From NCBI GenBank assembly GCA_905182485.1, contig CAJJBO010000034.1, positions 1-49,556 on the forward strand: a DNA stretch of 49,556 nt, read 5' to 3'. This document shows, one piece after another, positions 354 to 49,556 of the stretch; within the stretch, counting starts at the first letter, position 1; every line of letters starts with the position of its first letter. The notes under the pieces are model-generated. The model was given only the letters and a program-made list of their open reading frames with translations. It was not told the origin of the DNA and did not search any database. A program made the translations under genes and the position numbers. The DNA is from an uncultured Luminiphilus sp. Its GTDB lineage: Bacteria > Pseudomonadota > Gammaproteobacteria > Pseudomonadales > Halieaceae.

Positions 354-384
354 GGCATGTACACTATGTCAGTTAGAAGCAAGC

Positions 385-414
385 ACTATAATGCGCGTTG
401 TTTCACCGGGTCAA
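385..414 (-). promoter_or_regulatory. Predicted sigma70 promoter for the zapB-like/zapA operon
   Basis: Read on the minus strand, TTGACC (409-414) is followed after 17 nt by TTATAG (386-391), or after 18 nt by TATAGT (385-390). Both hexamers are close to the sigma70 consensus. The start codon of the zapB-like gene follows about 30 nt downstream. The -10 overlaps the -10 of the oppositely directed ygfB promoter. Confidence 0.55.
387..392 (+). promoter_or_regulatory. Predicted -10 element for the ygfB-pepP-ubi run
   Basis: A perfect TATAAT lies at 387-392, about 130 nt upstream of the ygfB start. No good -35 hexamer is visible at 16-18 nt spacing (CTATGT is the best), so an activator or a weak basal promoter is possible. 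The leader between it and ygfB contains no ORF that I can support. Confidence 0.4.
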
Positions 415-520
415 TGCACGGCAACACAACTGAGATGACGACGGGCTATTTTAGGAAGTAGCGTTGCGTCATCATCGATGAATAAGGTTTCAATTACCGA
501 CAATTAGGGATGGCATTATT

Positions 521-3619: not shown

Positions 3620-4817
3620 TCGCTACACTGAGCGCAGCGCGGATGTGCTGATCGTTGGCGCTGGCATTGCCGGGCTGTCCTTAGCGATTGCTTTGAGCAA
3701 AAGTGATTGTCATGTCGTGGTGATTGATGGCGCTGATCGTCCCAAGCCAGTCAACGCAGGCGTTGCATTAAATGACTGGGATCTTAGAGTCAGTGCATTG
3801 ACACCCACGTCCATTCGTTTTCTCGAGTCACTCGGCGTGTGGCAGAGGATTCCCAGCGAGCGCACTGCCCCCTACCAGGCCATGTGTGTTTGGGATGCTG
3901 ACGGCACGGGCCGAATCACCTTTAACGCAGAGGATGTCGCCGCACCTTGCCTCGGACACATTGTTGAGAACCGACAAACGGTGCAGGCGTTGCTAGAGTG
4001 CGCAGAGGCTTGCAGCGGCGTGGAGCTCCGCTGGCAAAGTGCACTGGAGTCCCTGTCTCGCAAACCGGATGGTTGGTCTATCGATTGTGCCGGAGATCAA
4101 CGCCTCTCTGCACAACTTGTTGTCGCGGCTGACGGTGCCCGTTCAAAGGTGCGTCAGCTGACAGCGCAGCCCACTCGGGATTGGGATTATCATCAGAGTG
4201 CGATTGTTGGCACAGTTGCGCTATCGTCGCCACATCAAGCAACGTGCTGGCAAGCTTTCCTAAGTACTGGTCCATTAGCGCTACTGCCATTGCCCGATCC
4301 TTCTAAAGTAGCGCTGGTTTGGTCGTTAGATGTGCAGGAGCATTCAGGGGTTGCGGCGCTGTCGGATACCGCTTTTATTGAGGCTTTAAATCAGGCCTTG
4401 GGTCCATTAGCGCCTCATGCGGAGGCGGTAGGAACCCGCGTGAGTTTTCCGCTCAAACAAAGCCATGCGATCGATTACGTGGACGACGCGTTAGTATTGG
4501 TTGCTGATGCGGCACACAGCATCCATCCATTGGCCGGACAAGGCATCAACCTTGGGCTGTCCGATGTGCGCATTTTGGCGCAAGAACTACTGGCGGGTTG
4601 CGCCGGTGGCCTCACGGTTTCGAGCCCCGTTTCCTTAAAACGCTATCAACGCCAGCGTAAGTCGGAAAATCTCGCCATGATGGCGGCGATGGAGGGTTTT
4701 AAGCGCGGCTTTGGTAGCCCTCATCCCGCCGCAGTGATACTGCGGAATATCGGCCTGAATATGGTTGAGCGTCAGCCCTTGCTTAAGCGATGGTTTATGC
4801 GGCAAGCGATTAGCTGA
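3612..4817 (+). CDS. ubiI: Ubiquinone biosynthesis C5-hydroxylase (UbiI/VisC family)
   Basis: A 401-residue FAD-dependent hydroxylase that should act at ring position C5 in ubiquinone synthesis. GAGIAG near residues 16-21 binds the FAD adenosine. An intact DG motif (AADGARSKVRQL) is in the middle, and the second FAD signature is VADAAHSIHPLAGQGINLGL. I chose the ATG at 3612 because it places the Rossmann strand at the usual distance from the N terminus; a TTG at 3585 would add nine residues without a better ribosome site. Position after ubiH fits UbiI, but UbiF-type hydroxylases are close relatives and cannot be excluded by eye. Confidence 0.85.
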   Translation: MPDRYTERSADVLIVGAGIAGLSLAIALSKSDCHVVVIDGADRPKPVNAGVALNDWDLRVSALTPTSIRFLESLGVWQRIPSERTAPYQAMCVWDADGTGRITFNAEDVAAPCLGHIVENRQTVQALLECAEACSGVELRWQSALESLSRKPDGWSIDCAGDQRLSAQLVVAADGARSKVRQLTAQPTRDWDYHQSAIVGTVALSSPHQATCWQAFLSTGPLALLPLPDPSKVALVWSLDVQEHSGVAALSDTAFIEALNQALGPLAPHAEAVGTRVSFPLKQSHAIDYVDDALVLVADAAHSIHPLAGQGINLGLSDVRILAQELLAGCAGGLTVSSPVSLKRYQRQRKSENLAMMAAMEGFKRGFGSPHPAAVILRNIGLNMVERQPLLKRWFMRQAIS

Positions 4818-4946
4818 CTTGCGGGCATGAGCGCGATTACGCAGGTCACGGTTTCGCGACGCAGCGAGCCGTCCGTTTAACATCACCAGTTCGTTTCACC
4901 CCATTTAGTGGGTGTGTTTTGACAGTTATTGAGTGAGGGGGTCGTT

Positions 4947-5339
4947 ATGCCTCAGGATCCAGACAATCTGCATTACGCAGCAACTCATGAGTGGGCCCGG
5001 CTGGAAGCGGATGGCTCAGTGACGGTTGGTATTACTGAGTATGCGCAGCAGGCGTTGGGGGATGTCATGTATGTCGAGCTACCTATGGTGGGTGCTGTCG
5101 TCTTGGCGGCAGGGTTCACTGGCATTGTGGAGTCCGTTAAGGCGGCGTCAGATATCTATGCGCCGATAGCGGGCACGGTGCTCGCCGTGAATGAGGCATT
5201 AGCCGATACCCCCGAGCAGATTAATGAGGATCCCTATGGCGCAGGATGGTTTTATCGCTTACGGCCAGAGGAGCCATCGCAGCTTAACGCGCTGCTGGAC
5301 GCCGGGGGCTACGCGTCTGCCGCAGCGGCAGAGACTTAA
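4947..5339 (+). CDS. gcvH: Glycine cleavage system H protein
   Basis: A 130-residue lipoyl carrier protein. It shuttles the aminomethyl group between the P, T and L proteins of the glycine cleavage system. The lipoylation lysine is K65 in GIVESVKAASDIYAP, matching E. coli GcvH K64 in position. ATG 4947 is preceded by GAGGGGG at 9 nt, so it is preferred over the upstream TTG at 4929. Unlike many gammaproteobacteria, no gcvT or gcvP is adjacent: ubiI lies upstream and a convergent HAD gene downstream. I saw no glycine riboswitch in the 129-nt gap before it. The partner proteins must be encoded elsewhere. Confidence 0.92.
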   Translation: MPQDPDNLHYAATHEWARLEADGSVTVGITEYAQQALGDVMYVELPMVGAVVLAAGFTGIVESVKAASDIYAPIAGTVLAVNEALADTPEQINEDPYGAGWFYRLRPEEPSQLNALLDAGGYASAAAAET

Positions 5340-5353
5340 TAGTGCTGTTGCAT

Positions 5354-5995
5354 TTAGGGGCGTAGCGAGAGTACCGTCCAGCCGTGGCGTTCCGCATGCG
5401 CAGCGAGCAGGGGGTCGGGGTCTACCGCGACGGGATGGCCGACTTCACTGAGAAGCGGTAAATCGTTGTGAGAGTCGGAATAAAACCAGGTGTCACTGCA
5501 CGCGTCGCGGTCCTCATCAGACGAGCGCCAAGCGGCAAGGTGCGCACAGAGGGTCGCAGGGTGGCCGTGCGCCACGCGCAGCGGTCGCGCCGCCTCCATA
5601 AGGTCGACACCGCCCAGGGGCACGAAGGCCGTCTGGGCGAGCTTGGCGACGTCCGCAGGTTTGGCTTGGGTATGGAGCAGACCGCGGCGCCTCGCCTTGG
5701 CCGCTATCAGCGTAAATGCCTTGTCCAGCAGCATGGGTTCGACGCATTGAGTTATAAATTGCCGCTGTAAAGCGCGCACAGAGGCCTTTGTTTTGCCGGT
5801 AAGGGGCGCGAGCACAAACTGAAGGTAGGCCGTCATGTCGAGGTTACCTGCCTGATACGCTTCATAAAATTGATCGTTAGTGCGCGCAAAGTTTGCCGCG
5901 TCGACCAAGCCTTTTTCGACTAGGAACTCCCCCCAGCGGTGATCAGAATCGCCAGCGAGTAACGTATTATCGAGGTCAAAGATAGCGAGGGCCAT
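5354..5995 (-). CDS. HAD-superfamily IB phosphatase-like protein with eroded motifs
   Basis: A 213-residue protein starting MALAIFDLDNTLLAGDSDHR. That is HAD motif I with both aspartates, in the form seen in the SerB-like HAD-IB family. Motif IV is also intact near the C terminus (WFYSDSHNDLPLL, followed by the family-typical VAVDPDP). The middle (about residues 100-165) is abnormal: the ITATN-type motif II is replaced by LLHTQAK, and the motif III lysine segment (normally FxxGKxxRL) is missing where HGHPATLCAHL now stands. This part is strongly GC-rich. It may be a decaying gene or contain compensating base-call errors. ATG 5993-5995 was chosen because it precedes motif I directly. It is convergent with gcvH, 14 nt apart. 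Confidence 0.65.
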   Translation of the reverse strand: MALAIFDLDNTLLAGDSDHRWGEFLVEKGLVDAANFARTNDQFYEAYQAGNLDMTAYLQFVLAPLTGKTKASVRALQRQFITQCVEPMLLDKAFTLIAAKARRRGLLHTQAKPADVAKLAQTAFVPLGGVDLMEAARPLRVAHGHPATLCAHLAAWRSSDEDRDACSDTWFYSDSHNDLPLLSEVGHPVAVDPDPLLAAHAERHGWTVLSLRP

Positions 5996-6163
5996 GGCGT
6001 TATTCGGTTGCTCCCAAAAAAATAAGACCTCTTCGTTGAGTCCCGTTGACAGAGGATGTGTGGAAGAATACGGATTGGAAGCCTGCGTCACAATCCCGTT
6101 GGGCTTAACTCGTGTGCGACGACTCGGTATCGGATCTTGAATACAGAAGCAGACAACGACAGG

Positions 6164-6676
6164 GTGATCGATAAAGACGGCTTCAGGCCAAATGTCGGCA
6201 TTGTCATTTGTAACGAAGATGATCAGGTGCTCTGGGGGCGCCGGGTCAATGGCAGAGATTCGTGGCAATTTCCGCAAGGCGGGATTCACCGAGGCGAAAC
6301 GCCAGAGGTTGCAATGTACCGTGAGCTGGAGGAGGAGGTCGGACTCAAGCCAGACATGGTGAAAGTATTGGGGCGAACCCAGAGTTGGTTGCATTACCGG
6401 CTGCCCAAGCGGTTTATTCGTCCCTCTGAGGATCCCGTTTGTATCGGTCAAAAGCAGGTTTGGTTTTTGATGAGATTAACGGCAGCAGAGAGCGATATCA
6501 GGTTAGATGCCGATGACACCCCAGAATTTGATCACTGGCGCTGGGTGACATATTGGTATCCCATTTCGGCGGTGGTGGACTTCAAGCAAGCCGTTTACCG
6601 ACAGGCGCTGACACAATTAGCGGGTCGTCTTAGCCCGCAGCGCAGGCCTGCGCGCAGACGGCGTGGGGGCCGCTGA
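6164..6676 (+). CDS. rppH: RNA pyrophosphohydrolase RppH
   Basis: A 170-residue Nudix hydrolase that removes pyrophosphate from the 5' triphosphate end of mRNA and so triggers RNase E-dependent decay. The start GTG at 6164 gives [17 protein letters not shown], which aligns with the E. coli N terminus. The Nudix box [20 protein letters not shown] runs from residue 39, with metal ligands E54, E57 and E58. WHRW-type sequence [10 protein letters not shown] and the arginine-rich tail ([11 protein letters not shown]) are also typical. The stop overlaps the ATG of ptsP by one base. The order rppH-ptsP-lgt-thyA is conserved with E. coli. Longer upstream starts exist in frame but add non-family sequence. 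Confidence 0.93.
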
Positions 6677-8952
6677 TGCTCGAATTGCTCCGCCGGCTGA
6701 TTCAGGATGTTAACGCTGCCGATTCGCTTGAAGATGCACTTAATCTAATTGTTGCTCAGGTTAGAGCGGCGATGCGGACGGATGTGTGCACGATTTACCT
6801 GCATGATAAAGCGAGTCAGAAGTTGATATTTCGGGCCACCGAGGGGCTGAACTCGAACAAGGTAGGACAGTTTGGTTTGGGCTTCGATGAGGGGCTCGTG
6901 GGCTGGGTTGCGACACGCGAGGAGCCACTGAACCTTGATAATGCCATTGCGCATCCTCAGTTTCAGTTGGTCGATGGTTTAGGGGAAGAGCCTTTTAACG
7001 CGTTTTTGGGCGCCCCGATTATTCATCAGAGAGACCTTTTGGGCGTATTGGTGGTGCAACAAGGTGATCATCGTCGATTTTCTGAGGATGAAGAGGCCTT
7101 TCTGATCACCGTCTCTGCCCAGCTTGCCGGGGTGATTGCCCATGCGGAGCTAGCGGGCGCTATTGGACAAACGGTGTCGGTTGCTGCCGCCACCGAGAGC
7201 GCAGTAAGGCTCTCGGGCGTTGCCGCGTGCGCGGGTATTGGTATTGGCACAGCGGCTTGGATTTCGCCGGTCGCCGATTTGCAGACGGTGCCGTCACGTA
7301 AAGCAGACGATCGGGTCGCCGAATTACGCGCGTTTCGTGAGGCGCTCGCCAGCGTTCGCAGCGACATACAGCAAGTGGCGGAAAATTTAAAAAGCGAGCT
7401 CGGACCCGAGGATCACGCCTTATTTGGGGTCTATCTCAGCATTCTTGATGATTCGGTTTTAGGGAGTGAGGTTGCCGCTCTGATTAAAGCTGGTGAGTGG
7501 GCGCAGGGTGCATTGAGTCAGGTGATGTTGCGCCACATCCGACATTTTGAACGCTTAGATCACTCTTACCTCCGTGAGCGGGCAGTCGATGTCCGTGACT
7601 TGGGGACTCGTGTGCTGAGTTATCTGCAGGACGCCAGCCGCCAGGAGGTGGATTATCCAGCGGCGACGATTTTAGTGGCAGAGGAATTAACCGCCGCCAC
7701 GCTGGGAGAGATTCCCAGAGATCGGCTCGCCGGTATTGTATCGATGCGAGGCAGTGCTAATAGCCACACCGCGATTTTGGCAAGAGCTATGGGGATTCCT
7801 GCTGTGGTAGGCGTTGAGGATCTGCCCCTCAAGCGGTTGCCCGACCAGCGACTCGTGGTCGACGGCTACAACGGCCGAGTCTATGTGAACCCCCATAATG
7901 ATTTACTGGCGCGCTTTGAGGCGCTGCTCGCAGAGGACGAGGCGTTATTTGAGGAACTTGCGCCATTGGCATCCCAGCCCGCGCAAACCTCAGATGGCAA
8001 CACTATTCCTCTCTGGGCTAACACGGGTGTCGCCGCCGATGTGCAAAGGGCTCGGGAATTCGGAGCTGAAGGTGTGGGCCTTTACCGAACCGAAGTCAGC
8101 TTTTTATTGCGGGATCGATTCCCGAGTGAGGAGGAGCAAAGACAGCTGTATCGTGAGCAGTTAGAGGCGTTTAATCCCGCACCCGTGACCATGCGGACAC
8201 TCGATATCGGTGGCGATAAAGCCTTGCCTTACTTTCCTATCGAAGAATCCAATCCCTTTTTGGGTTGGCGTGGTATCCGGGTCACTCTAGATCATCCGGA
8301 AATTTTTCTGACACAGGTGCGTGCCATGTTAAAGGCCAACGAGGGCCTCGATAATTTACGCATTTTATTGCCCATGGTGACAGCCATCGACGAGCTTCGT
8401 GCGGCACGATCGCTGATTGGCAGATGTCACACCGAAGTGCTCAGCGAGGGGTTTACTGCACCCTTGCCCGATATTGGCGTGATGATCGAGGTGCCTGCCG
8501 CGGTCTATTTGGCAGGGCCGTTGGCACAAGAAGCCGATTTTTTATCAGTGGGTTCCAATGACCTGACGCAATACTTATTGGCGGTTGACCGCGGTAATAC
8601 CCGCGTTGCCGCCCTGTATCAAGCGTTGCATCCTGCGGTGTTGGCGGCGTTCGCTCACATTATTAAAGCCGCTCACGGTGAGAACAAGCTAGTCAGTATT
8701 TGCGGTGAGTTGGCAGGCGACCCGCGCGCTGCGCCATTATTGGTTGCGATGGGATTCGACCAGCTGTCGATGAATGCGGGAAGCTTGTCCTTGGTGAAGC
8801 GGGTTCTCAGTGCCTTCAGTACGGCGGAGCTGGCTGATTTGATGGCGACACTATTACCTCTTAGATCGGCTCAAGAGGTGATGACCGCATTAGATTCGGC
8901 ACTGAGTCAGCGTGGACTCGATATTTTTCTCAGACGCCGCGGAGACGACTAA
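6676..8952 (+). CDS. ptsP: PTS-Ntr enzyme I (phosphoenolpyruvate-protein phosphotransferase)
   Basis: A 758-residue cytoplasmic phosphotransferase, the first component of the nitrogen-related PTS. It takes phosphate from PEP and passes it to NPr (PtsO). An N-terminal GAF domain (about residues 1-160) would sense small molecules such as glutamine in known homologues. The phosphohistidine domain has the active H364 in GSANSHTAILARAMGIPAVV. The C-terminal PEP-binding barrel contains GGDKALPYFP, FLSVGSNDLTQYLLAVDRGN and CGELAGDP. Length is close to E. coli PtsP (748). It follows rppH with a one-base overlap and abuts lgt. Confidence 0.95.
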   Translation: MLELLRRLIQDVNAADSLEDALNLIVAQVRAAMRTDVCTIYLHDKASQKLIFRATEGLNSNKVGQFGLGFDEGLVGWVATREEPLNLDNAIAHPQFQLVDGLGEEPFNAFLGAPIIHQRDLLGVLVVQQGDHRRFSEDEEAFLITVSAQLAGVIAHAELAGAIGQTVSVAAATESAVRLSGVAACAGIGIGTAAWISPVADLQTVPSRKADDRVAELRAFREALASVRSDIQQVAENLKSELGPEDHALFGVYLSILDDSVLGSEVAALIKAGEWAQGALSQVMLRHIRHFERLDHSYLRERAVDVRDLGTRVLSYLQDASRQEVDYPAATILVAEELTAATLGEIPRDRLAGIVSMRGSANSHTAILARAMGIPAVVGVEDLPLKRLPDQRLVVDGYNGRVYVNPHNDLLARFEALLAEDEALFEELAPLASQPAQTSDGNTIPLWANTGVAADVQRAREFGAEGVGLYRTEVSFLLRDRFPSEEEQRQLYREQLEAFNPAPVTMRTLDIGGDKALPYFPIEESNPFLGWRGIRVTLDHPEIFLTQVRAMLKANEGLDNLRILLPMVTAIDELRAARSLIGRCHTEVLSEGFTAPLPDIGVMIEVPAAVYLAGPLAQEADFLSVGSNDLTQYLLAVDRGNTRVAALYQALHPAVLAAFAHIIKAAHGENKLVSICGELAGDPRAAPLLVAMGFDQLSMNAGSLSLVKRVLSAFSTAELADLMATLLPLRSAQEVMTALDSALSQRGLDIFLRRRGDD

Positions 8953-9741
8953 GTGGTGCCCTATCCTAATATTGATCCCGTTGCCATCGCGCTGGGCCCG
9001 ATCACCGTGCATTGGTATGGCCTCACCTACCTCGGTGGCCTCGCCTTTGCGTGGTGGCTAGCGCGTCATCGAGCGGCGCAACCCCATACGCCACTCCAGC
9101 GTCATCAAGTGGATGATCTTATTTTTTATGCGGCGGTTGGCATCGTGATTGGAGGCCGGTTGGGCTATACCCTTTTTTACGGACTCGATCGTCTTATCGG
9201 CGATCCGCTATGGTTGTTTAGGGTTTGGGAAGGCGGCATGGCATTTCACGGTGGCTTTCTGGGTGTGCTGGTGGCGATGACACTGTTTGCGAGACAGCAC
9301 CACATTCAGGCAGGGCAGTTGCTGGATTTTGTTGCCCCCCTCGCGCCCGTTGGCCTCGCTTTAGGTCGATTAGGCAACTTTATCGGGCAGGAGCTGTGGG
9401 GCAGAAGTGCTGACATCCCTTGGGCGATGGTGTTTCCTCGGGATCCCCTGGCTTTGGCGCGTCACCCCTCGCAGCTCTACCAGTTTGCACTCGAGGGTTG
9501 TCTCTTATTCATTCTGCTCTTATGGTTCAGTCGACAGCCGCGGCCCCAGTGGGCCGTCTCCGGTGTCTTTTTGATGGGCTATGGGTTGTTTCGATTTTTA
9601 GCAGAGTTTTTCCGCGAGCCAGACGCTCATATTGGGTTTGATGCCATGGGCTGGATGACACGAGGTCAATTATTGTGTGTGCCCATGCTGATGGCAGGCA
9701 TTTGGTTACTTTATTGGGCTTATCGACCGACCCAGCGATGA
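8953..9741 (+). CDS. lgt: Prolipoprotein diacylglyceryl transferase Lgt
   Basis: A 262-residue inner-membrane enzyme with about seven membrane segments. It transfers diacylglycerol from phosphatidylglycerol to the lipobox cysteine of prolipoproteins. The Lgt signature [14 protein letters not shown] lies at residues 138-151, and the essential histidine-glycine pair is in MAFHGG (H99, G100). It starts at GTG 8953 immediately after the ptsP stop, with GGAG a few bases earlier. Two lipoproteins encoded in this window (DUF4136 and MltF-like) would be substrates. Confidence 0.95.
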
Positions 9742-9748
9742 GGAAAGC

Positions 9749-10582
9749 ATGCAGGCGTATCTCGACTTATTAAACGACATTCGCGATCACGGGATTGACC
9801 GTGGCGACCGCACCGGCACCGGTACTCGGTCCGTTTTCGGCCGGCAACTCCGCTTTGATCTCGCGCAGGGGTTCCCGTTACTCACCACTAAGAAAGTGCA
9901 CTTTAAAAGCGTCGCGAATGAACTGATTTGGTTTCTCAGCGGTGATACCAACACGCAGTGGTTGCGCGAGAATGGCGTGCGCATTTGGGATGAGTGGTCA
10001 ACCGAAGACGGGGAGCTCGGGCCTCTATACGGCGCACAGTGGCACGCCTGGCCCACTCGGGACGGCGGCAGTATTAATCAAATCGACTACGTGGTGGATT
10101 GCCTGCTGAATCGGCCTGATAGCCGCCGCATCTTGTTTCACGCTTGGAACGTCGAATACTTGCCTGATGAAACCATCAGTCCACAGGATAATGTCCGAGC
10201 GGGTAAAATGGCGTTGCCACCCTGTCACCTGCTTTATCAATTTTACGTCGCCAACAAAACACTCTCTGCCCAGTTGTATATTCGTTCAAGCGATGCGTTT
10301 TTAGGCCTGCCCTTCAACATAGCATCGGTGGCGTTGTTGACCCATATGCTGTCTCAGCAATGCGGCTTAGCGCCTGGAGAGGTTGTCATTACGTTGGGCG
10401 ACGCTCACCTCTATAGCAATCATGGTGAGCAGGTCGCGACGCAGCTTGATCGCGTCCCTGGGGTCTGCCCGTCTTTGAACATGTTGCGCCATCCAGAATC
10501 CATTTATGGTTACCGCTTCGACGATTTTGAACTGGTTGGCTATGACCCCGCGCCAAATATCCCTGCTCCGGTGGCGATCTGA
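9749..10582 (+). CDS. thyA: Thymidylate synthase
   Basis: A 277-residue cytoplasmic enzyme that methylates dUMP to dTMP using 5,10-methylene-tetrahydrofolate. The catalytic cysteine is C159 in [14 protein letters not shown]. The folate and phosphate sites [31 protein letters not shown] and [19 protein letters not shown] are all present. It is a few residues longer than E. coli ThyA (264). It lies 7 nt after lgt with AGGAAAG as ribosome site, and its TGA shares a base with the ATG of folA, coupling dTMP synthesis to regeneration of the folate it oxidises. Confidence 0.96.
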
Positions 10583-11124
10583 TGACAGGATCTCGGCAAG
10601 ATAATGATATTCCTGTCGTCTTGGTGCTGGCGGCAGCTGAAAATGGCGTGATCGGACGGGGAGACGCCCTACCATGGGATTTACCCGATGACTTGCGTCA
10701 TTTTAAACGGACCACATTGGGACGGCCCATTATCATGGGGCGGAAAACCTTTGACAGTGTTGGTTTCCCGCTGCCTGGGCGCCGCAACATAGTGGTCACT
10801 CGCGATCAAAATTGGCATCATGAGGGCGTCACGACGTGTCACACGCTGTCAGACGCCTTGGAATGCGCCTTTGGGCAGGCGCTCATTGACGGCGCCGACG
10901 CGGCTATGGTGGTGGGCGGTGCTGAAATCTACCGGTTGGTATTACCAAGAGCTGACAAAGTGGTATTGACGCGGGTTCATGGCGCGGTTGACGGTGACGT
11001 GGTGTTCGATCTTGACCTTCTGGCGCAGTGGCGCGAGACCGCGCAAACCGCTTACGACGCAGTAGATGGCAACAGCCATGCCTTCACGATTGTTGAGCTG
11101 GAACCGCCTGCTCGCCCCATCTGA
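10582..11124 (+). CDS. folA: Dihydrofolate reductase
   Basis: A 180-residue NADPH-dependent reductase that regenerates tetrahydrofolate. Family hallmarks are the GVIGRGDALPWDLPDDLRHF segment, with the substrate-binding aspartate in PDDL, the NADPH-binding MGRKTFDSVGFPLPGR, and the later VVGGAEIYRLVLP. It is slightly longer than typical chromosomal enzymes (about 160), mostly through the C-terminal part. It is translationally coupled to thyA. No rho-independent terminator is visible after it. Confidence 0.95.
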   Translation: MTGSRQDNDIPVVLVLAAAENGVIGRGDALPWDLPDDLRHFKRTTLGRPIIMGRKTFDSVGFPLPGRRNIVVTRDQNWHHEGVTTCHTLSDALECAFGQALIDGADAAMVVGGAEIYRLVLPRADKVVLTRVHGAVDGDVVFDLDLLAQWRETAQTAYDAVDGNSHAFTIVELEPPARPI

Positions 11125-11257
11125 TCCGCGAAAACGGTTTAACGTCGGTGGGCAAATTATTTGCGTTGGCGAAACGGACGGGTTAAATTCGCTCCCCCAA
11201 TGTTGGCAGACGCGATATTATAGGAATAACAGCGTCACCAATTTAGCTTATAGAAGA

Positions 11258-11273
11258 GTTGGCCTAGGCCAAC
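11258..11273. promoter_or_regulatory. 16-bp perfect palindrome upstream of the TonB operon
   Basis: GTTGGCCTAGGCCAAC reads the same on both strands. It lies 39 bp upstream of the DUF3450 start codon, in the 187-nt gap after folA. Symmetric sites of this size are typical dimer operators; a leader hairpin is the alternative. No convincing sigma70 promoter is visible nearby (TATTAT at 11216-11221 lacks a -35). Confidence 0.4.
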
Positions 11274-11311
11274 GCATTCCAGATTTTGCTTTGAGAGGAA
11301 GTATCGATCCT

Positions 11312-12082
11312 ATGACTACGACTCGACTTAAAAGTTTACTGTTGGCAATCTGTGTCGGCGGCAGTGCGTCGCTGGCCGCTGCACAGTCCATCGACCCCAT
11401 CGTCGAGGTGGGCAAGCAACGGGCAGTGGCGGCAAAGTCCTCCCAGGCCAAGATTGACCGACTCGCGGACGAGGCGGCCAGCTTGTTGTCTGACTATAAA
11501 ACGGTCATGAAGCAAGTGGATGGCCTCAAGGTCTATAACGCACGCTTGGAGCGCCAGATTGCGAACCAAGAGAAGCGCATCACCGATATCGATGCCTCTA
11601 TCTCTGAGGCGTCCGTCATTCAGCGCCAGATTCCACCCTTGGTGACGCGGATGCTGGACGGACTCGAGCAGTTCATTCAATTGGATATGCCGTTCGACCT
11701 CGATACCCGCTTGGGTAATATCGAAGCCGTTCGAGCCAACATGGATCGCTCGGATGTGACGTCTGCTGAGGCGTATCGTCAAGTGTTAGAGCTTTATTCT
11801 ATCGAGCTGCAGTACGGTCGTGGCATTGAGTCCTACAGCGACTCTATTAACCTTAACGGCGCGGCACGCGAAGTGGATATTCTGCGCATTGGCCGCGTGG
11901 CCCTCGTTTACCAGAGCACCGATGGCGCCGAGACGGGTGCTTGGAACCGTGAGACGCAAAGCTGGGAGGAGTTACCTGCCGGTGATTATGCTTCAGAAGT
12001 GCGTAAAGGCGTTCGTATCGCGAAGAAGCAAGCGACGATCGAACTCTTAAATATGCCCGTATCAGCCCCGGAGGCGAACTGA
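11312..12082 (+). CDS. DUF3450 family periplasmic protein, first gene of TonB operon
   Basis: A 256-residue protein of the DUF3450 family, recognised from its position before ExbB-like genes and its layout. An N-terminal signal peptide ends near SLAAAQS (about residue 25). A long helical, probably coiled-coil region follows (DRLADEAASLLSDYKTVMKQ onward), then a C-terminal part with VALVYQSTDGAETGAWN. The ATG at 11312 has GAGAGGAAG 9-17 nt before it and puts the signal peptide at the N terminus; longer in-frame starts back to 11066 overlap folA and were rejected. It probably acts in the periplasm as a structural partner of the ExbB complex. No enzymatic motif is seen. Confidence 0.8.
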   Translation: MTTTRLKSLLLAICVGGSASLAAAQSIDPIVEVGKQRAVAAKSSQAKIDRLADEAASLLSDYKTVMKQVDGLKVYNARLERQIANQEKRITDIDASISEASVIQRQIPPLVTRMLDGLEQFIQLDMPFDLDTRLGNIEAVRANMDRSDVTSAEAYRQVLELYSIELQYGRGIESYSDSINLNGAAREVDILRIGRVALVYQSTDGAETGAWNRETQSWEELPAGDYASEVRKGVRIAKKQATIELLNMPVSAPEAN

Positions 12083-12083
12083 A

Positions 12084-13508
12084 ATGCGTTCTCAATTTCT
12101 GAAAGTATCTGCTCTGGCGCTGGCAAGCGCGCTATATATTCCCTTTACGCTCGGCCAAGAGGCTGAGGCAGAAGTCGAGGCGCCGCCTCCCCCGACTCCG
12201 CAGGAAGTCGCTGCTGAAAATCTTGACCAGCTACTTGAGTTGGTGGAGCGAGGTCAGGCACGAGCTTCATCTGAAAACAAAGCGCGCGAACAGCGTTTTG
12301 CTAGCGACAAGGCCAACCAAGCTACGGCGTTAAAGCGTGCTGAAGACGAGCGCTTGCGGGAAGAGCGGCGCTCTGCCCGATTGGAGAAAAAGTTTGAAGA
12401 AAATGAGCTGTTGATCGCAGCGAAGCAAGAGCAGCTGAAAGAGCGATTGGGCACCTTGTCTGAGTTGTTTGGCCATTTGACAGCCGCCTCCGGCGATTTG
12501 GCGTCTAACGTTGAGGTCTCTTTGGTGAGCTCTGAGTACCCCGGCCGTGAAGGGTTCCTGAAGGCGTTAATTGCCAAGATGTCAGGTTCAGATCAACTGC
12601 CGCGTATCGATGAGATTGAAAAAGTCTGGTTTGAGCTGCTGCGTGAGATTCGCGAGCAGGGTGAGATCAGCCGTTACATCGCGAAGGTGGCGACGCCTTC
12701 TGGTGAGTTGAACGAGCGAGAGGTTGTCCGGGTGGGTGCGTTCAACATTATCGATACCGAGGGCAATTACCTCTCTTTCAACATCGATCAGCTATCTGAG
12801 TTGCCTCGGCAGCCTGGTGGTGGCTTTAACGGACAGGCGCAGGACCTCGCTTCGGCGCAATCGGGATTATCGCAGTTTGGTATTGACCCCACTGGTCCTA
12901 CCGGCGGCTCTTTTCTGGCCGCTATTATCGATAGCCCCACTATTTCTGAGCGGTGGCATCAGGGTGGATACGTCGGTTACGCCATTACGGCGGTGGGCAC
13001 CTTTGCCTTCATTCTGGCCATTTTCCGACTGATCGTGCTGACTTCTGTAGGTAGCAAGGTGTCATCTCAGCTCAAGTCGACGTCGGCACGCGCCGATAAT
13101 CCTTTGGGACGGGTCTTAAAGGTTCACGAAGATCATCCCAATATGGATCCTGAGACGCTTGAGCTGAAAATGGCCGAAGCGGTACTAAGTGAAACGCCAA
13201 AACTTGAACAGGGTCTCACGCTGTTGAAAATCATTGCCGCAGTGGCGCCGTTAATGGGGCTGCTGGGTACGGTGACCGGCATGATCATCACCTTCCAGGC
13301 GATCACCATCTTTGGCGCGGGCGATCCCAAGGCGATGGCTGGTGGTATCTCCTCAGCATTGGTGACCACGGTACTGGGTCTGTTGGTTGCGATACCCACG
13401 GTATTGCTTCATACAGTGGTGAATGGACGTTCGCAGCGGATTATTCATTTGCTGAACGAGCAAGCCACGGGCATTGTGGCGGAGCATTCCGAGCGCGCGC
13501 ACAACTGA
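12084..13508 (+). CDS. Long MotA/TolQ/ExbB-family proton channel protein (TtpC-like)
   Basis: A 474-residue ExbB-family protein with an unusual periplasmic front end. A signal peptide is followed by an acidic, proline-rich stretch (EAEAEVEAPPPPTPQE) and a long charged coiled coil (about residues 70-130). After a middle domain there is a membrane segment near residue 300 and the ExbB channel core with APLMGLLGTVTGMIITFQ and GISSALVTTVLGLLVAIPT. This architecture matches TtpC of the Vibrio TonB2 system, where the periplasmic extension is needed for TonB2 function. It starts 1 nt after the DUF3450 stop. Function is inferred from that family; sequence identity could not be measured. Confidence 0.82.
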   Translation: MRSQFLKVSALALASALYIPFTLGQEAEAEVEAPPPPTPQEVAAENLDQLLELVERGQARASSENKAREQRFASDKANQATALKRAEDERLREERRSARLEKKFEENELLIAAKQEQLKERLGTLSELFGHLTAASGDLASNVEVSLVSSEYPGREGFLKALIAKMSGSDQLPRIDEIEKVWFELLREIREQGEISRYIAKVATPSGELNEREVVRVGAFNIIDTEGNYLSFNIDQLSELPRQPGGGFNGQAQDLASAQSGLSQFGIDPTGPTGGSFLAAIIDSPTISERWHQGGYVGYAITAVGTFAFILAIFRLIVLTSVGSKVSSQLKSTSARADNPLGRVLKVHEDHPNMDPETLELKMAEAVLSETPKLEQGLTLLKIIAAVAPLMGLLGTVTGMIITFQAITIFGAGDPKAMAGGISSALVTTVLGLLVAIPTVLLHTVVNGRSQRIIHLLNEQATGIVAEHSERAHN

Positions 13509-36836: not shown

Positions 36837-37664
36837 TTAGGGCTGCTGACTGTGATACGACAGCAGCGGATCTTCTTCATGCGTTCCGGTATGGCAAGCG
36901 ATGGCGTCGACAAATAAATAAAATAATTCCGCCTGTGAAGAGATATCGAGCTTGGCATAGGCATGCTTGCGATGCAGTTTAATGGTCTCGGTCGATATTT
37001 GAAGTTTTTCTGCAATGAGCCGGGTGCTGTGCCCCAACAACACCAGCTCGATCACTTCCCGTTCACGACGCGTGAGCACTGAAGCCCCGAAGGCGCTCAG
37101 TGCGACCTGTAAGCGCTGGCGCAAACCTGTCTGACTCGCCGCGGGTGGCACTGCGTCATGCCAGTGTCGACGGACTAACGCGTCTACGACGGGGAAAACG
37201 GCCTGTAACAAGTTGATCTGTCGTTTTGAGAATGTTCGACTGCCGTCTGTCATACCAAACGCCAGGTTGACTAAACCATCGGTTAGTTTGATCAGCAGAC
37301 CACATTCGTCTTGAAAGCCGCAGTCCTGATACCAAGTACGATAGTACTCACTTTCTTTGAAGCCTTTGGGAGACAGCGTCTTCAGTTGAAAGACGCCAAA
37401 CCGTCCGTCGATCGTGGCAGCGCGATAAAAGGGGTCTAACAAAAACGGGCCCGTGACATAACGGTCGAGTGTGGTTTTACCTCGCCGCGGCGGAAGCGTG
37501 TATTCGATGATCGGGACGCCGGTATCTCGATAGCGGATGAGCGACGAGTCATCTGCTCCGACCCATTCCTGAATGCCGACGCTTAAGACCTCAGCGAACT
37601 CGGGTTCGTTGAGGTGAGAGACGGCATCGGTCATGACGCGGGAGAAGTGGGTTAGCAGATTCAT
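36837..37664 (-). CDS. LuxR-family transcriptional regulator
   Basis: A 275-residue regulator. The C-terminal LuxR/GerE helix-turn-helix starts near residue 195 with LTRREREVIELVLLGHSTRL and continues as IAEKLQISTETIKLHRKHAY. The N-terminal 180 residues look like a GAF/PAS-type sensor (GFQDECGLLIKLTDGLVNLA) with no receiver domain and no clear autoinducer-binding signature. It lies divergent from the GST-like gene, with a perfect palindrome between the two start codons that may be its own site. Confidence 0.88.
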   Translation of the reverse strand: MNLLTHFSRVMTDAVSHLNEPEFAEVLSVGIQEWVGADDSSLIRYRDTGVPIIEYTLPPRRGKTTLDRYVTGPFLLDPFYRAATIDGRFGVFQLKTLSPKGFKESEYYRTWYQDCGFQDECGLLIKLTDGLVNLAFGMTDGSRTFSKRQINLLQAVFPVVDALVRRHWHDAVPPAASQTGLRQRLQVALSAFGASVLTRREREVIELVLLGHSTRLIAEKLQISTETIKLHRKHAYAKLDISSQAELFYLFVDAIACHTGTHEEDPLLSYHSQQP

Positions 37665-37721
37665 TCACGAAGCTTAGCCGCATTGCGCCTCTCGGCCCAG
37701 CGGGTTTTGTCTGCCACATAG

Positions 37722-37735
37722 CGTCAAGCTTGACG
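37722..37735. promoter_or_regulatory. 14-bp perfect palindrome between luxR-type and GST genes
   Basis: CGTCAAGCTTGACG, fully symmetric, lies 58 nt upstream of the regulator start and 52 nt upstream of the GST start. Good operator candidate for the adjacent LuxR-family protein. The rest of the 122-nt gap shows no further feature. Confidence 0.42.
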
Positions 37736-37786
37736 TCCGACTGAACACCGCTCAGTGTGCCACGAAGACGCAAAGAGGCATCAGCG

Positions 37787-38719
37787 ATGACCGCAACCCA
37801 TTTAGTTTTGCACCAATACGATATTTCTCCTTTTTCTCAGAAAGCGCAAAAGATGATGGGTTTGAAAGGCCTCGCCTGGCAAAGCATTGAAATGCCGCTG
37901 ATTGCGCCAAAGCCTGATGTCGAGGCCTTAACCGGGGGTTATCGCGGGACGCCAGTATTGCAACGGGGTGCCGATGTCTATGTCGACAACTGGATGATTG
38001 CCCGCGCGTTAGATGATTTTGATCCGACACTACCGAGGCTCAATAGTCAGGGTGCGTTGCAGGCAGCAGCTGGCTATGCATGGAGTGAGCGGTTTTTTAC
38101 CCCGCTATTACATACCGCCTTCGCGACTTACAAGAACCAGTGGGATGACGATTTTCGCGCCGATCGTCAGCAGGTGTTCCCTGCCGTTGATTTCAATACG
38201 CTGTCGGTCGTTGATCCAGAGCGCCAAAGCCAGGTGCGCGCCTTTGTGAGCACGATTGCAGCGCAATTAACCCGCGGCGGTGCGTTTCTAAACGGTGACC
38301 ATCCCGATGGCTGGGATGTGCATGTTTGGGGCATGTGTTGGATGGTTCACAGCGCTTTGCCTGATTTGGTCCCAGTGATCGATGCTTTTCCTGTCGTGGC
38401 GAATTGGTATCAGCAGATGACAGATTTAGGCGTGGGGGAGCGAGCAGACGTCACGATAGACGTGGCGTGGAATCAGTTGAGCGAGGGGCAAATGGCACCG
38501 CTGCCCGACACGCCCCTGGACGAGCCATTGCGGGGTTGGCTCGGTCAGCAGGTGGTGGTCGGAACGGGATCAGCTGATCGGGGTGCCTCTGCGGGCAGAT
38601 TGTTAGCCGTTGATGCGGAGCAGGTCGTGATCGCCACCGAGCCACGCCAAGGTGCTAGCGCGCAGGTATGGTTTCCGCGCTTTGGTTATGCCCTTCGCTT
38701 AGCCAGCCAGTCGGCGTGA
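37787..38719 (+). CDS. Glutathione S-transferase-like protein
   Basis: A 310-residue protein. The N-terminal thioredoxin-like domain starts LVLHQYDISPFSQKAQKMMG, with the SPFSQKA active-site segment of omega/beta-type GSTs, and has GTPVLQRGADVYVDNWMI as the glutathione gamma-glutamyl site. A helical C-terminal domain follows to about residue 225. The last 75 residues form an extra domain (GWLGQQVVVGTGSADRGASA) not seen in ordinary GSTs. ATG 37787 with GAGG upstream is chosen over an in-frame upstream start. The reaction is unknown. Confidence 0.82.
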   Translation: MTATHLVLHQYDISPFSQKAQKMMGLKGLAWQSIEMPLIAPKPDVEALTGGYRGTPVLQRGADVYVDNWMIARALDDFDPTLPRLNSQGALQAAAGYAWSERFFTPLLHTAFATYKNQWDDDFRADRQQVFPAVDFNTLSVVDPERQSQVRAFVSTIAAQLTRGGAFLNGDHPDGWDVHVWGMCWMVHSALPDLVPVIDAFPVVANWYQQMTDLGVGERADVTIDVAWNQLSEGQMAPLPDTPLDEPLRGWLGQQVVVGTGSADRGASAGRLLAVDAEQVVIATEPRQGASAQVWFPRFGYALRLASQSA

Positions 38720-38732
38720 TTATCCTTAGGGA

Positions 38733-40001
38733 CTAACTGACCTCTACAAGGTCCAATGTGGCCTGATACAGAGGCTCTGCCCCGGTTTCGTTGACAATAA
38801 AGACGTTTTCCATGTGCGAGGGGCCCAGTGCACTGCCGAAGTAAAGGCAGTCGATGCTGATCACCATGCCCGCCTCGACTACGAACCCGCCCTGAGCACC
38901 ATGGAGCCCTGTGCCTGGATATCTGACCGGGCTTTCGAGCGGGACCAGACCCACCGAATGAGCCACCACCAGCAATTTTTCCGCCGGATCAAGGTACCCA
39001 GCCGCAGCGATATCCTGGAACTTGCAGATCTCTGCCGTATTGACCCCGGGCCTCAGGCGCCCGCTAATCGTCTCAAAGATTTCTCGCACGGCGGCGTACT
39101 GATCACGGTAAGGCTGCGATGCGGGCCCAATATGGGCGGTGCGATTAATGTCGATCCAGAAGTTTTTATAACGCCCCTGGGTTTCGAGAATCACAATCTC
39201 ACCCCCTTGAAACGGACGGCTGACGGGTGTGCGAAAGAGGTCGGGTCTGAAGACCAGGTCATAGGCACCACCAAATAGCATGGGGCTGCCTGGCAGAGGG
39301 TCTACATCGTGATCAATCATAAAGTGCGCCACGGATTTTTCGACTGCGGCCCATGTCGTCCCGATGCCCAGCTGCGAGATGGTGTAGGCCATGATGCCAT
39401 CGGCAATGTGACCACTCTCCTTAAGGGTAGCGATCTCATCTGACGTTTTAATCACCCGTGCGCCGAACATCGTATCCAGCGCATCTCCGGTGGACTGGCC
39501 GGTTAACGCCTCGACGTGGGCGGCTACTCGTAGATCATCGAATAACACCCGATCATTTTCTGAGAGGTGTCGGGACAAAGTCGCCGCGATGGCCTGAATA
39601 ATATCTGGTTGGCATTGGCCCTCGACCTGTTTCATCGCCCGCTCGAGCTCTACCAGCAGGTCATCAGGGAGCGCGAGGTGCGCATCTTCGGCACGGGCCG
39701 TTGAGCAGAAGTTCAGCATATCGAAGGTCGCGATGCGCTCTAAATGGACCGGATGGCCACCACGCTCCGAAACAATCAGAGAGATAATGCTGGCCTCGGG
39801 TAAAATCAGCACGACGGGTAGCGCCATATCGGTCGGGATAAATAACGCCGCGATGGGCTCCACCAGATGCCACCCGTCCATCACCGAGCTAAAGCCCGAG
39901 GCATAGAAAATATTATCTTGAGTGCTTAACAGCACCCCCGCAGCGCCTGCCGACGCCAGTTGGGCTCGGATTTTTATGATTTTCTCGGCGTGCATAGTCA
40001 T
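38733..40001 (-). CDS. M24-fold (creatinase/Xaa-Pro peptidase-like) protein with altered metal site
   Basis: A 422-residue protein with the two-domain creatinase/aminopeptidase-P layout: a creatinase-N domain (about 10-150) and a pita-bread domain (about 190-415). The usual metal ligands are only partly kept. Where the first aspartate is expected (LIDAG) the sequence is VILETQGRYKNFWIDINRT, so the first D is lost and the second (WIDINRT) is present. The histidine (VVAHSVGL) and a final glutamate (SHMENVFIV) are present, but TIEPG is replaced by SIDCLYF. It may be a hydrolase with a different metal site or a non-metal creatinase-like enzyme. It converges with the GST-like gene (13 nt). Confidence 0.82.
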   Translation of the reverse strand: MTMHAEKIIKIRAQLASAGAAGVLLSTQDNIFYASGFSSVMDGWHLVEPIAALFIPTDMALPVVLILPEASIISLIVSERGGHPVHLERIATFDMLNFCSTARAEDAHLALPDDLLVELERAMKQVEGQCQPDIIQAIAATLSRHLSENDRVLFDDLRVAAHVEALTGQSTGDALDTMFGARVIKTSDEIATLKESGHIADGIMAYTISQLGIGTTWAAVEKSVAHFMIDHDVDPLPGSPMLFGGAYDLVFRPDLFRTPVSRPFQGGEIVILETQGRYKNFWIDINRTAHIGPASQPYRDQYAAVREIFETISGRLRPGVNTAEICKFQDIAAAGYLDPAEKLLVVAHSVGLVPLESPVRYPGTGLHGAQGGFVVEAGMVISIDCLYFGSALGPSHMENVFIVNETGAEPLYQATLDLVEVS

Positions 40002-44863: not shown

Positions 44864-46748
44864 ATGATGCAATTTAAGCGAATGAATCGTTGGGCGTGGC
44901 TGGGCGTGTTGGCCTGCCTATTCGCGCAACAGAGTCTGGCTGCGACTGAGGCGCCGATCGACGGCATGGCGCTCTATCAAAAGCACTGTGCCGCCTGCCA
45001 CGAAGGTAAGGTCCCGCGGGCGCCGCACATGATTACCTTTTCTACCATTGGCGCAGAGGCGGTTTTGACCGCGATGAACGAAGGCGTGATGCGATCTCAG
45101 GCGTCCGCCTTGTCTGCTACTGAGCGTGAAGTGTTGGCCGGTTTTCTCGCCGGAGAAGCGATGGCTCCCCCGAATCCCATAATGGCCTGCGCTCAGCCCA
45201 TGGCGACGCTTGCGCGAGATGATAAATCAGCCATGAAAGGTTGGGGTGGCGATGCTCGGAATCAGCGTCACGCCCCTGAACATTCGACTGGGCTCACTCG
45301 CGATAATGTGGGCCAGCTTGCCCTAAAGTGGGTCTTTGCTTATCCCGGCGCACTCCGTGCGCGTTCCCAGCCTCTGGTTCACGATGGCGTGGTCTTTGTC
45401 GGTTCCCAGTCGGGCGACATTTATGCCCTCGATCTCGAGACCGGTTGTGCCCACTGGACTTACTCTGCCGGTGCAGAGGTCAGAAGCAGCTTGTCTTTGG
45501 GTCATGTACCCGGACGGCCGAATCCTGTGCTTTATATGGGTGATTTCAGCGCGACCGTTCACGCGGTAGATGCGTTGGACGGGTCGTTGATATGGCGCAC
45601 GGCGGTTGGTGACCACCCTGATGCCACCATTACTGGCTCCCCCAAGTTGCACGAGGGGAAGCTGTACGTGCCGATCTCTTCTTCGGAATGGGCCACCGCT
45701 GCTGATCCGGGATACGCCTGCTGCACTTTTCAAGGGGGCGTAGTGGCCGTCGATGCGGCTTCGGGTGCCCTTGAGTGGCGCAATCATGTTATCGACGAAG
45801 CTGCCGTAGAAACGAGTGAGAAGAATCCTTTTGGCGTGCCGCGAAAAGGCCCTGCCGGCGCGCCGGTGTGGAATAGCCCAACAATTGACGCCGACCGCGG
45901 CGTGCTTTACGTCGGTACTGGAGAGGGCTATACCTCGCCTGCGGCCGATACGAGCGACGCAGTCGTGGCGTTTGCTCTGGAGACGGGTGAACGGCGGTGG
46001 GCGAAGCAGCTTTTGGGTGGCGATGCCTGGAACATGGCTTGCTTCATAGGAGAGGCGGCCAACTGCCCTGAGGAAGACGGCCCTGATCTCGATATCGGCG
46101 CGTCCACCATTTTGTGGTCAGACGGCGATCGCGATTACTTGCTGGTGGGACAGAAGAGCGGTGACGTTTACGCGCTTGATCCCGATGAGGACGGTGCCGT
46201 GTTGTGGCACAACAAGGTGGGGCGAGGCGGCTTCCTGGGCGGCGTCCATTGGGGTATGTCTGCTGATACAGAGTCACTCTTCGTGCCCATTGCAGACACC
46301 ACCATCACAGGGCGGTTCACGGGGAGAGGTCTCTCCGGGAATCCATGCCCTCGACCCGACCTCGGGTGATCGAAAGTGGTATACGCCCAGCACCGTGGCT
46401 GACTGCGAGGGCAAGTCACCGGTGCCCATCTGTGATCAAGGCATGTCTGCCGCGATCACCAGCACTGACGGGTTGGTCTTTGCGGGAAGCCTAGACGGTA
46501 ACCTCAATGTTTACGACAGCGTCTCGGGGGAGATCATCTGGTCGTTCGATACCTTTGGTGACTTTGAGTCGGTGTCAGGCGATATGGCGCTCGGTGGTTC
46601 GATCGAATCTGATGGGCCGGTGCTTTACGAAGGGCACGTGCTGGTGAATTCGGGTTACCAGTTTGGCGCGCGCATGCCGGGCAATGCCTTAATGGTCTTT
46701 TCCGTATCGCCTGCCGCTACGTTGGCAAAAGGGCAGAATAATGAGTGA
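44864..46748 (+). pseudogene. Cytochrome c / PQQ beta-propeller quinoprotein dehydrogenase, one frameshift
   Basis: An exported protein: a signal peptide (WLGVLACLFAQQSLAA), a short cytochrome c domain with CAACH at residues 42-46, then a PQQ-type beta-propeller with repeated blades (GDIYALDLETGCAHWTYSAG, GGVVAVDAASGALEW, DVYALDPDEDGAVLW). This cytochrome-first order is that of polyvinyl-alcohol dehydrogenase-like quinoproteins, which oxidise alcohols in the periplasm. The frame breaks after TTITGRFTG at about 46325; removing one base restores EVSPGIHALDPTSGDRKWYT and runs to the stop at 46748, giving about 628 residues. The stop overlaps the E2 start by 8 nt. The frameshift is probably a sequence error. 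Confidence 0.8.
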
Positions 46749-47919
46749 GGGACTGGACGCCGTGACGATACCGAAGTGGGGTATCGAGATGACGCACGGC
46801 ACGATCGTTGCCTGGCACAAAAAGGTGGGGGATACCGTCGCCGCGGGTGAAGACATTGTCGATATCGAAACGGACAAAATCGTCAACAGCTTTGAGGCCC
46901 GCACCTCCGGGACGCTGGTGCGGATCTTGGCGGAGATTGGTGCGGAATTGCCGGTAGGGCAACTGATTGGTGTCATTGCGCCGGAGTCGGTGACTGAGGC
47001 GGCGGTAGATGCCTTCGTAGCCGCACAAGGTGCCGCCGTCGTCAAAACGGCTGAGGAGCCCGATGCGGCGGCGCTCCCCGCGACCTCGGCGGCGTCTTCC
47101 GGCACCGCCGTCAAAATCTCCCCGGCATTGCGCCGCAAGCTCGAGAGCGCCGGTCTCAATGCGGAACAGGTGACCGGGACCGGGCCCGGTGGCCGGATTG
47201 TCAAAGAAGATGTCGACCGCGCGCTCGCAGACCCCAGCGCCGCGTCAGAGACGCAGGCTGCGGGTAAGCCGCTGTCTGCGCAGCAGGCGACCGTGGCGCG
47301 AAAGCTCTCTCACGCACAATCCACCGTGCCCCTTTACCATGTTTCCCTCGATGTGGATGTGGAGTGCTGCCATGGCGTCGCTAGCTGCGGCGCCTCAAGA
47401 CGCGGCCGGCACCATCAACGATCTGATTATTGTGGCGGTGCAGCATGCGCTGGTCGGTCAGCCCGAGCTGAACAAAACCTTCGATGGCGACCGGATGACC
47501 TCGCTAGCAGGTCAGCCGGTGGGGTTGGCGGTGGCGACTGAAGATCACGTTGTGTTTGCACCGGTAGTACAAACGACCGTTGAAACACCGTTCTCCGAAC
47601 TGGTGAGTCAAGACCCGCGACCTGATTGGGCGCGACGCGAGCCGGCCAGATCAAGGCGGAGGATGCCGCTCCCCGCTGCCATTACCATCAGCAATCTCGG
47701 TATGTATGGCGTGAGCGCGTTCACGGCCATGGTGACGCCCCCCCAAGTGATGGTGCTATCAGTCGGCGCGATCCGTCGAGTACCGGCTTTTGATCGCCCA
47801 AGGGGCCGTGGTCGCGCCGCCGCTCTTGACGCTGCCGTGTGGGCAGCGACCACCGCGTGATCCTTGAGCAGCTTCAGGCAGCGACCTTTTTCGGCGCTAG
47901 TGCCCAGTGGCGTGGCTGA
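46741..47919 (+). pseudogene. Dihydrolipoamide acyltransferase (E2), several frameshifts
   Basis: The first part reads normally: a lipoyl domain with the lipoylation lysine in DIETDKIVNSFE, then a peripheral-subunit binding domain (ISPALRRKLESAGLNAEQVT and GPGGRIVKEDVDRAL). In the catalytic domain the frame changes at about 47374, 47614, 47635, 47672, 47798 and 47842. Each piece is recognisable: APQDAAGTINDLIIVAVQHA, AAITISNLGMYGVSAF, GAVVAPPLLTL and finally DHRV at 47848 with the catalytic histidine. The corrected protein would end at 47919. Clustered insertions in G/C runs suggest sequencing error. It completes the E1/E2 complex; E3 is not here. Confidence 0.8.
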
Positions 47920-47940
47920 ACGTGCCGTCGTAAAGCGCCC

Positions 47941-48385
47941 TCAACCCTCAGAGCCGATATCGAGTTGCCCGTCACCCGCTTGTGCCGCTTTGAGCGTCAT
48001 GGCGTTGAAGACATAGTCGACTTCACCCTCTGGGGTGAAATAGGTCACCGCGCCTTCTCCTAGAAAAAGCATTTCGGTCTCGACAACGCAGTGCGCGTCT
48101 CGATGTTCCGCAAAGATAGGCTCAAAGCCATAGGTGCCCTGCGCTGCGGTGCCCACGTCGTAAATTAATTCGCCACTCATGATGAAGAACTGGCCGGTGC
48201 CCCTCATGGCGATGGGCCTGAAAGCGAGCGCCGGGTTCCATGTGGACATACAACGCCCACTGCCCTGTTTTCTCACACAGCCTGAGGATTTTAAACTGTG
48301 TGCCGCCGCCGACATCTAACCACTCAAGTTCATGGATATTAGCCAGCAGATCGCCCGCTGGGGTGGTGGTGATACCCGCACTCAT
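47941..48385 (-). pseudogene. Cupin protein (2,4'-dihydroxyacetophenone dioxygenase/ChrR-like), one frameshift
   Basis: Start MSAGITTTPAGDLLANIHEL at 48385. The cupin core reads LRLCEKTGQWALYVHMEPGA then RFQAHRHEG, after which the frame must shift at the C4 run 48200-48203 to continue as TGQFFIMSGELIYDVG, then YGFEPIFAEHRDAHCVVETE and FLGEGAVTYFTPEGEV. Removing one C gives a complete protein of about 147 residues. The histidines of the HRHEG motif and the later glutamate/histidine are metal ligands of the cupin fold. The pattern resembles 2,4'-dihydroxyacetophenone dioxygenase and the ChrR cupin, but substrate is unknown. Leftward, with only 10 nt to the next leftward quinoprotein gene. Confidence 0.75.
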
Positions 48386-48395
48386 AGTCTGTCCT

Positions 48396-49556
48396 CTATT
48401 TTTTGTTGGGCAATTTAAAAGCGATCAAGTGGTCCCCAGGCGGCGTGCCCAATGCCGCGTGGCCGCCCGCTGCAATCACGACATATTGCGCGCTGTCTTT
48501 CTGTAGCTGGTAAGTAATGGGCAATCCATGGCCTGAAGTGGGCAGGCGACCTTTCCATAACTCGTCACCGGTTTGGGTGTCGAATGCCCGCAAGTAGTGA
48601 TCGGTGGTGGCACCAATAAACGTGAGGCCGCTCGCCGTCACGACGGGCCCGCCCAGGTTCGGTGATCCTTTGATGAACCAAAATGGGAACGGCGCCATGT
48701 CTCGTGTGGTGCCGAGGGGAACTTGCCAGTCAACATCGCCAGTCTGAAGGTCGATGGAGGCGAGGGGTACCCCAAGGTGGAGGGGTGCAAGGCACACCCA
48801 GGGGGGAGACGAACCCAAGCCAGCGGCGGTTGCAATAAGGTGGTCCCTTCACCCGGCTCCAAGATAAAGGGCCCGGGTGCGACCGGGTCTGGCCCCGTCT
48901 CGGGTCCGCACGCTTCTCGAGGCAATAACTGCAGGATCGTTCCCATGTGCAGCGTATTGACGATCAGTTTGCCTCTCACCGAATCGATGGCGGGTCCCCC
49001 CCCAGTTTTGGCCGCCAAACGCGCTGGGCATGTGCAACGCACCCTCGGTTGCCGGCGGCGTGAAAGGGCCCTCGTAACGGATGTCTTCAAGCGTGTTTGC
49101 GCAAGCCCCTTTATCCCATGGCGTCAGCCCCCACAGCAGCTCGTTTTCCCCCGGCAGTTCAAACAGGGATCGGGGCTTGCTCGGAATCGGCTGCGTGGGT
49201 GCCGTGAAGTCTCCCGCAACAGCACCTTGTGGGACGGCCGTCTCCACGACGGGAAAAAGCGGCTCTCCCGTCTTCTCGGTCGAGTAAAAAGACGTAACCC
49301 TGTTTGGTCGTTTGAGCGAGCCCAAGAATCGGGTTCACCCTCTCGTTCCCAGTCGAAAAACGTGGGCTGCGACGGCACGTCAAAATCCCAAATGTCGTGA
49401 TGAACGGTTTGAAAATGCCAGGCGACTTCGCCGGTGTCTATGTGCAGCGCCACCACTGAGCTGGAGTAATAATCGAGCCCGTCTCGTTGCCCGCCGTAAT
49501 AATCGGGTGAGGTGTTGCCGGTGGGCACGTAAACCAACCCCAAGTCTCGGGTCGAC
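48396..49556 (-). pseudogene. PQQ-dependent dehydrogenase (glucose/quinate/shikimate type), C-terminal part with several frameshifts, cut by window edge
   Basis: The leftward gene enters at the right edge as GLVYVPTGNTSPDYYGGQRD and SSSVVALHIDTGEVAWHFQT, classic for membrane PQQ dehydrogenases of the Gcd/QuiA family, then VHHDIWDFDVPSQPTFFDW. It then crosses frames at about 49331, 49267, 48996-49003 (C8), 48801-48806 (G6) and 48764, each restored by removing one base: LGLAQTTKQGYVFLLDREDG, PLFPVVETAVPQGAVAGDFT, PAIDSVRGKLIVNTLHMGT, LGVPCTPPPWGT, and finally ASIDLQTGDVDWQVPLGTTR to the stop at 48396. The C-terminal GLTFIGATTDHYLRAFDTQT and ELWKGRLPTSG are intact. It oxidises a sugar or alicyclic alcohol in the periplasm. 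N terminus lies outside the window. Confidence 0.8.

Follow-up and report, generated by a model that had tools for sequence, protein, structure and literature searches.

The window analysed here, 49,556 nucleotides long, is an entire contig (C34) of a Luminiphilus-like metagenome-assembled genome (MAG) of 42 contigs and 2.17 Mb that is 69.6% complete. The smallest of the 42 contigs measures 20,979 bases, and such contig sizes suit long reads. Four genes occupy the right tail of the window, and the identities first given to them in a sequence-only reading were upheld by Pfam. On the forward strand, a quinoprotein gene combining cytochrome c with a PQQ beta-propeller (44864–46748; ORFs, Pfam and alignment) has a single frame break near 46325, common to contig C7 of the same MAG, and is followed by a 2-oxoacid dehydrogenase E2 gene with lipoyl, E3-binding and catalytic domains (46741–47933; ORFs, gap comparison, Pfam and substitutions), which carries several extra bases from 47363 onward and has a noisy 3' part. 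On the reverse strand, a ChrR-type cupin gene (47941–48385) has a single extra base at 48200, and a PQQ-dependent dehydrogenase gene (48396–49556), truncated by the contig end, has six (48764 to 49546); both were identified from ORFs, the gap comparison and Pfam analysis of the C7 copy.

The final 3,609 bases of C34 (45948–49556) correspond to the initial 3,609 bases of C7 in a blastn match of 91% identity that reaches both tips. On a single contig of the related genome G004 (C43), the counterpart of the C34 end is followed by that of the C7 body, indicating that C34 and C7 are neighbours. In the C7 copy, the cupin and PQQ dehydrogenase reading frames are open, and the part of the quinoprotein gene that lies at the C7 tip is fragmented. 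Among named relatives, the C7 PQQ dehydrogenase comes closest to those of MAGs and single-cell genomes assigned to Luminiphilus and Halieaceae; the isolate HTCC2080 ranks lower. Likewise, the left tip of the window (1–2678) overlaps the right tip of another contig, C3; the 2,680 aligned columns contain no mismatch and 3 one-base gaps.

Extra bases and substitutions in the tail

The sequence-only reading had placed 13 frameshifts in the tail by eye, and every one matches a length difference relative to related genomes. Twelve were located to within about 15 bases; the one put at 48801–48806, a G run that is present in G004 as well, lies about 40 bases from the true event at 48841–48848. Three events were absent from that list: 47867 (+3, which the BLAST alignment splits into three single bases), 47912 (+2) and 49546 (+1). 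Within 46754–49556, where C34, C7, G004 and G013 are all comparable, 25 gap events were counted: 14 confined to C34, 9 confined to C7, 1 common to the two contigs, and a three-base event shared by C7 and G013. None was private to G004 or G013, none consisted of bases missing from C34 alone or from C7 alone, and the C34-only extra bases were found in none of the other three genomes or contigs compared over this interval. The extra base near 46325, which lies outside the interval, is present in C34 and C7 and absent from G004, G021 and G011. Two of the listed shifts, at 46325 and at 47614–47616 (near 47610), are thus common to both contigs; across the tail, 2 events occur in both C34 and C7 and 14 do not. 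By eye, the shared base near 46325 creates an inverted repeat at 46323–46336, with perfect 6-base arms around a 2-base loop, which is absent in G004.

Nearly all of the shifts had been attributed to a single additional base in a run of G or C, which comparison with the relatives did not confirm. Among 13 one-base insertions tested, a set that excludes the 46325 event, only three clearly lengthen a G/C run (47671, 48200 and 48764, in runs of three to four); three are ambiguous between references (48842, 48995 and 49331), and the remaining seven involve other bases or sites. The run of eight C at 48996 is equally eight long in G004 and C7.

Comparison of C34 with C7 yielded 31 frame-breaking extra bases, 16 in C34 and 15 in C7; within the 3,609-base overlap, those of C34 all lie no more than 2,194 bases from its tip, those of C7 all fall in its first 1,998 bases, and 27 of the 31 are closer to the tip of the contig that bears them. 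The tail also differs from interior parts of the window. Against G004, 47672–49556 contains 13 gaps whose length is not divisible by three alongside 94 mismatches, whereas 5704–12128 contains 1 such gap alongside 750 mismatches (Fisher p 1e-11). Over five interior stretches totalling about 35 kb, with coding and intergenic gaps pooled, such gaps number 38, a density of 1.08 per kb, whereas the tail has 6.9 per kb (p 4e-10). A similar contrast was obtained with G013, with 17 gaps and 268 mismatches in 46754–49556 compared with 5 gaps and 1,024 mismatches in 1–5494 plus 5704–10951 (p 3e-8).

For the first 46 kb, two clear frameshifts had been claimed; two candidates stand there, 17965 and 33285, at which a codon-model frameshift caller and G004 agree. 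Both are one-base insertions relative to G004 near codon-model breaks, and are possibly residual errors.

Missense change had been reported as absent from the broken genes, which is contradicted by a cluster of 35 C34-private substitutions in 47340–47945, although some of these may be alignment effects beside gaps. This noisiest stretch also holds 7 C34-only extra-base events and sits 1.6–2.2 kb from the C34 tip, in the middle of the overlap; elsewhere, C34-private substitutions number 0 in 46754–47340 and 4 in 47945–49556. The changed part of E2 takes in a stretch reading DHRVING in relatives, a conserved E2 motif. The cluster is distributed over codon positions 1/2/3 as 10/7/17, with 1 unassigned, compared with 67 of 76 G004-private substitutions at third positions in 46754–49556 (p 4e-5); against the G004-private substitutions of 47340–47945 only, p is 0.05. 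C7 is noisy in the same stretch (7/4/5; p 0.007 versus G004).

The identity of C34 to its relatives is itself uneven. C34 and C7 are 99.7% identical at 47954–48253 and 88–90% identical at 48254–48853, where C34 and G004 are 98–99% identical. In the interior, at 37001–39700, the relation to G004 is strongly mosaic, with stretches of 96–100% identity close to others as low as 78–83%, a pattern suggestive of recombination or of mixed strains within the bin.

Related loci and other contig ends of the MAG

The state of the four genes in relatives was surveyed with G021 proteins as queries at 24 of 79 named loci, counting pieces above 35% identity that share a strand and lie within 4 kb; the loci are not all independent, since one (L017) is G021 itself (100%) and some others apparently come from the same genomes as those compared above. 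The PQQ dehydrogenase is in one piece at 23 of 24 loci, the exception (L033) being in two frames, and L029 has one internal stop. The quinoprotein is in one piece at 12 of 13 matching loci (L021 is in two frames) and the cupin at 15 of 16 (L025 has two pieces in one frame). E2 is in one piece at all 18 loci, some of them cut by contig ends. At L020 (8422–8916, single-cell genome AG-894-J17) only residues 1–161 of E2 are matched and the cupin follows directly, possibly reflecting a truncated E2.

Overlapping tips recur across the MAG. Twelve contig-end pairs, chosen for matches reaching both tips (within 4 bases) with all others dropped, overlap tip to tip over about 0.76–5.3 kb. Besides the C34/C3 overlap, the C14/C2 overlap is nearly free of substitutions (2 mismatches, 3 gaps); strain divergence hardly accounts for indels on such a background, and assembly error is indicated instead. 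Four pairs exceed 99% identity, and 8 of their 13 gaps fall where one base, of any kind, occurs at least twice in a row. The other eight pairs are only 85–97% identical, so that strain differences are mixed with error there. When the 12 pairs are pooled, 125 of the 214 extra bases lie closer to the tip of their bearer (p 0.017), but the tendency fails across the 11 pairs other than C34/C7 (98 of 183, p 0.38); C38/C19 has just 5 of 41 closer to their own tip.

Contig ends were also scored with the codon-model caller, which is home-made and was applied to 82 of 84 ends. Its calls were denser in the outer 2 kb (36 breaks, 0.22 per kb) than at 5–12 kb (47 breaks, 0.08 per kb; p 2e-5), with a second rise at 3–4 kb (0.18 per kb). 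Its sensitivity is limited, as it detected only 5 breaks in the final 4 kb of C34, where about 16 events lie, and some calls are apparently false (there is no gap versus G004 or G013 at 6636 or 9702). The caller was trained on the stretches it scored, and we therefore treat its output as supporting evidence only.

Origin of the broken genes

Taken together, the frameshifts in the C34 tail are very probably sequencing or assembly errors at the contig tip. The sequence-only reading had preferred error to true pseudogenes, a view strengthened by the C34/C7 overlap, by the tipward and mostly private insertions, by the single-frame state of the genes in nearly all of the relatives surveyed, and by the near-identical C34/C3 overlap, which differs in single-base gaps only. 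With the exceptions of 47610 and 46325, each lesion occurs in one contig only, and the relatives lack it. They are concentrated near contig ends in C34 and C7 and in the tail relative to the interior; elsewhere in the MAG the concentration is weaker and not general. C34 and C7 both end within one 3.6 kb stretch, their tips overlapping, and each tip was probably built from few, poorly corrected reads, with low depth, incomplete polishing and long reads presumably all contributing. The middle 600 bases, noisy in both contigs, would look as if the tips had bridged a coverage hole. The four genes would then most likely be intact in the organism.

Several observations run against tip error. The insertions near 46325 and 47610 are common to both contigs, an outcome not expected from independent errors; moreover, the noisiest stretch is not at the very tip, the own-tip rule is not general, and the caller rises again at 3–4 kb. 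The shared insertions would be compatible with a noisy read incorporated in both tips, with a systematic error at these sites, or with a real lesion carried by the population. It is quite unlikely that the shared bases in the quinoprotein (about 46325) and E2 (about 47610) genes are real lesions, with tip errors superimposed, of a locus that one Luminiphilus lineage is losing. That all four genes are true pseudogenes, decaying after loss of the operon in this strain, is quite improbable. The two shared insertions would agree with decay, as would the 35 private substitutions with their near-flat codon-position spectrum in the 3' part of E2, in a stretch where C7 is noisy too. Yet none of the 25 gap events is a C34-only deletion, and the flat spectrum is confined to 47340–47945 rather than extending across the broken genes; private substitutions are almost lacking outside that stretch, even though the PQQ dehydrogenase bears six insertions. 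The insertions are moreover located in the tipward parts of two contigs, and the genes are single-frame in nearly all relatives examined.

Reads of several strains merged at the tip could produce both length differences and a substitution cluster, and the switch of C34 from C7-like (47954–48253) to G004-like (48254–48853) would accord with such a chimera. The C34-only extra bases occur in no compared genome, so mixing of known strains does not supply them, and mosaic identity to G004 is seen in the unbroken interior too; a chimera as the explanation is highly improbable, although strain mixture may act together with tip error. Phase-variable homopolymer tracts or programmed frameshifting in the service of regulation are scarcely credible, since, apart from the three insertions that lengthen runs of three to four, most lie outside runs, the runs are short, G004 and G013 have no length variation at these sites, and six lesions fall in one gene.

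PacBio continuous long reads, which have an insertion-rich error profile, were considered as the source, but the substitution cluster misfits simple raw-read error. To our knowledge, no single platform matches insertion-only errors combined with many substitutions. Unmerged tip-to-tip contig overlaps are a known feature of draft assemblies, and the 12 overlapping contig-end pairs of the MAG resemble them, although in 8 of the 12 the identity of 85–97% mixes strain differences with error. The available text of the Kastor paper (PMC12007338) describes errors in long-read assemblies as predominantly homopolymer-associated, with stress on deletions, and many detected insertion errors as tied to no particular homopolymer. 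As in the gene-fragmenting errors treated in that text, single-base indels in C34 break genes that are intact in relatives; unlike them, the C34 events are insertions only, mostly outside homopolymers, and are accompanied by a substitution cluster. The available part of PMC6325685 held nothing relevant, and no paper on this MAG was identified in the literature.

The broken tail genes are most likely an ordinary contig-tip artefact, and they should therefore not be read as pseudogenes. Their significance is one of data quality only: contig tips are unfit as a basis for statements on gene loss, on pseudogene counts or on the presence of PQQ and 2-oxoacid dehydrogenases in this MAG, and because of the tip-to-tip overlaps some loci occur twice, in differing versions. 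Contig-tip overlaps within one MAG also provide a rough, read-free gauge of indel error. The twelve overlapping contig-end pairs of this MAG (G000; L094–L173) could in addition serve to link its contigs.
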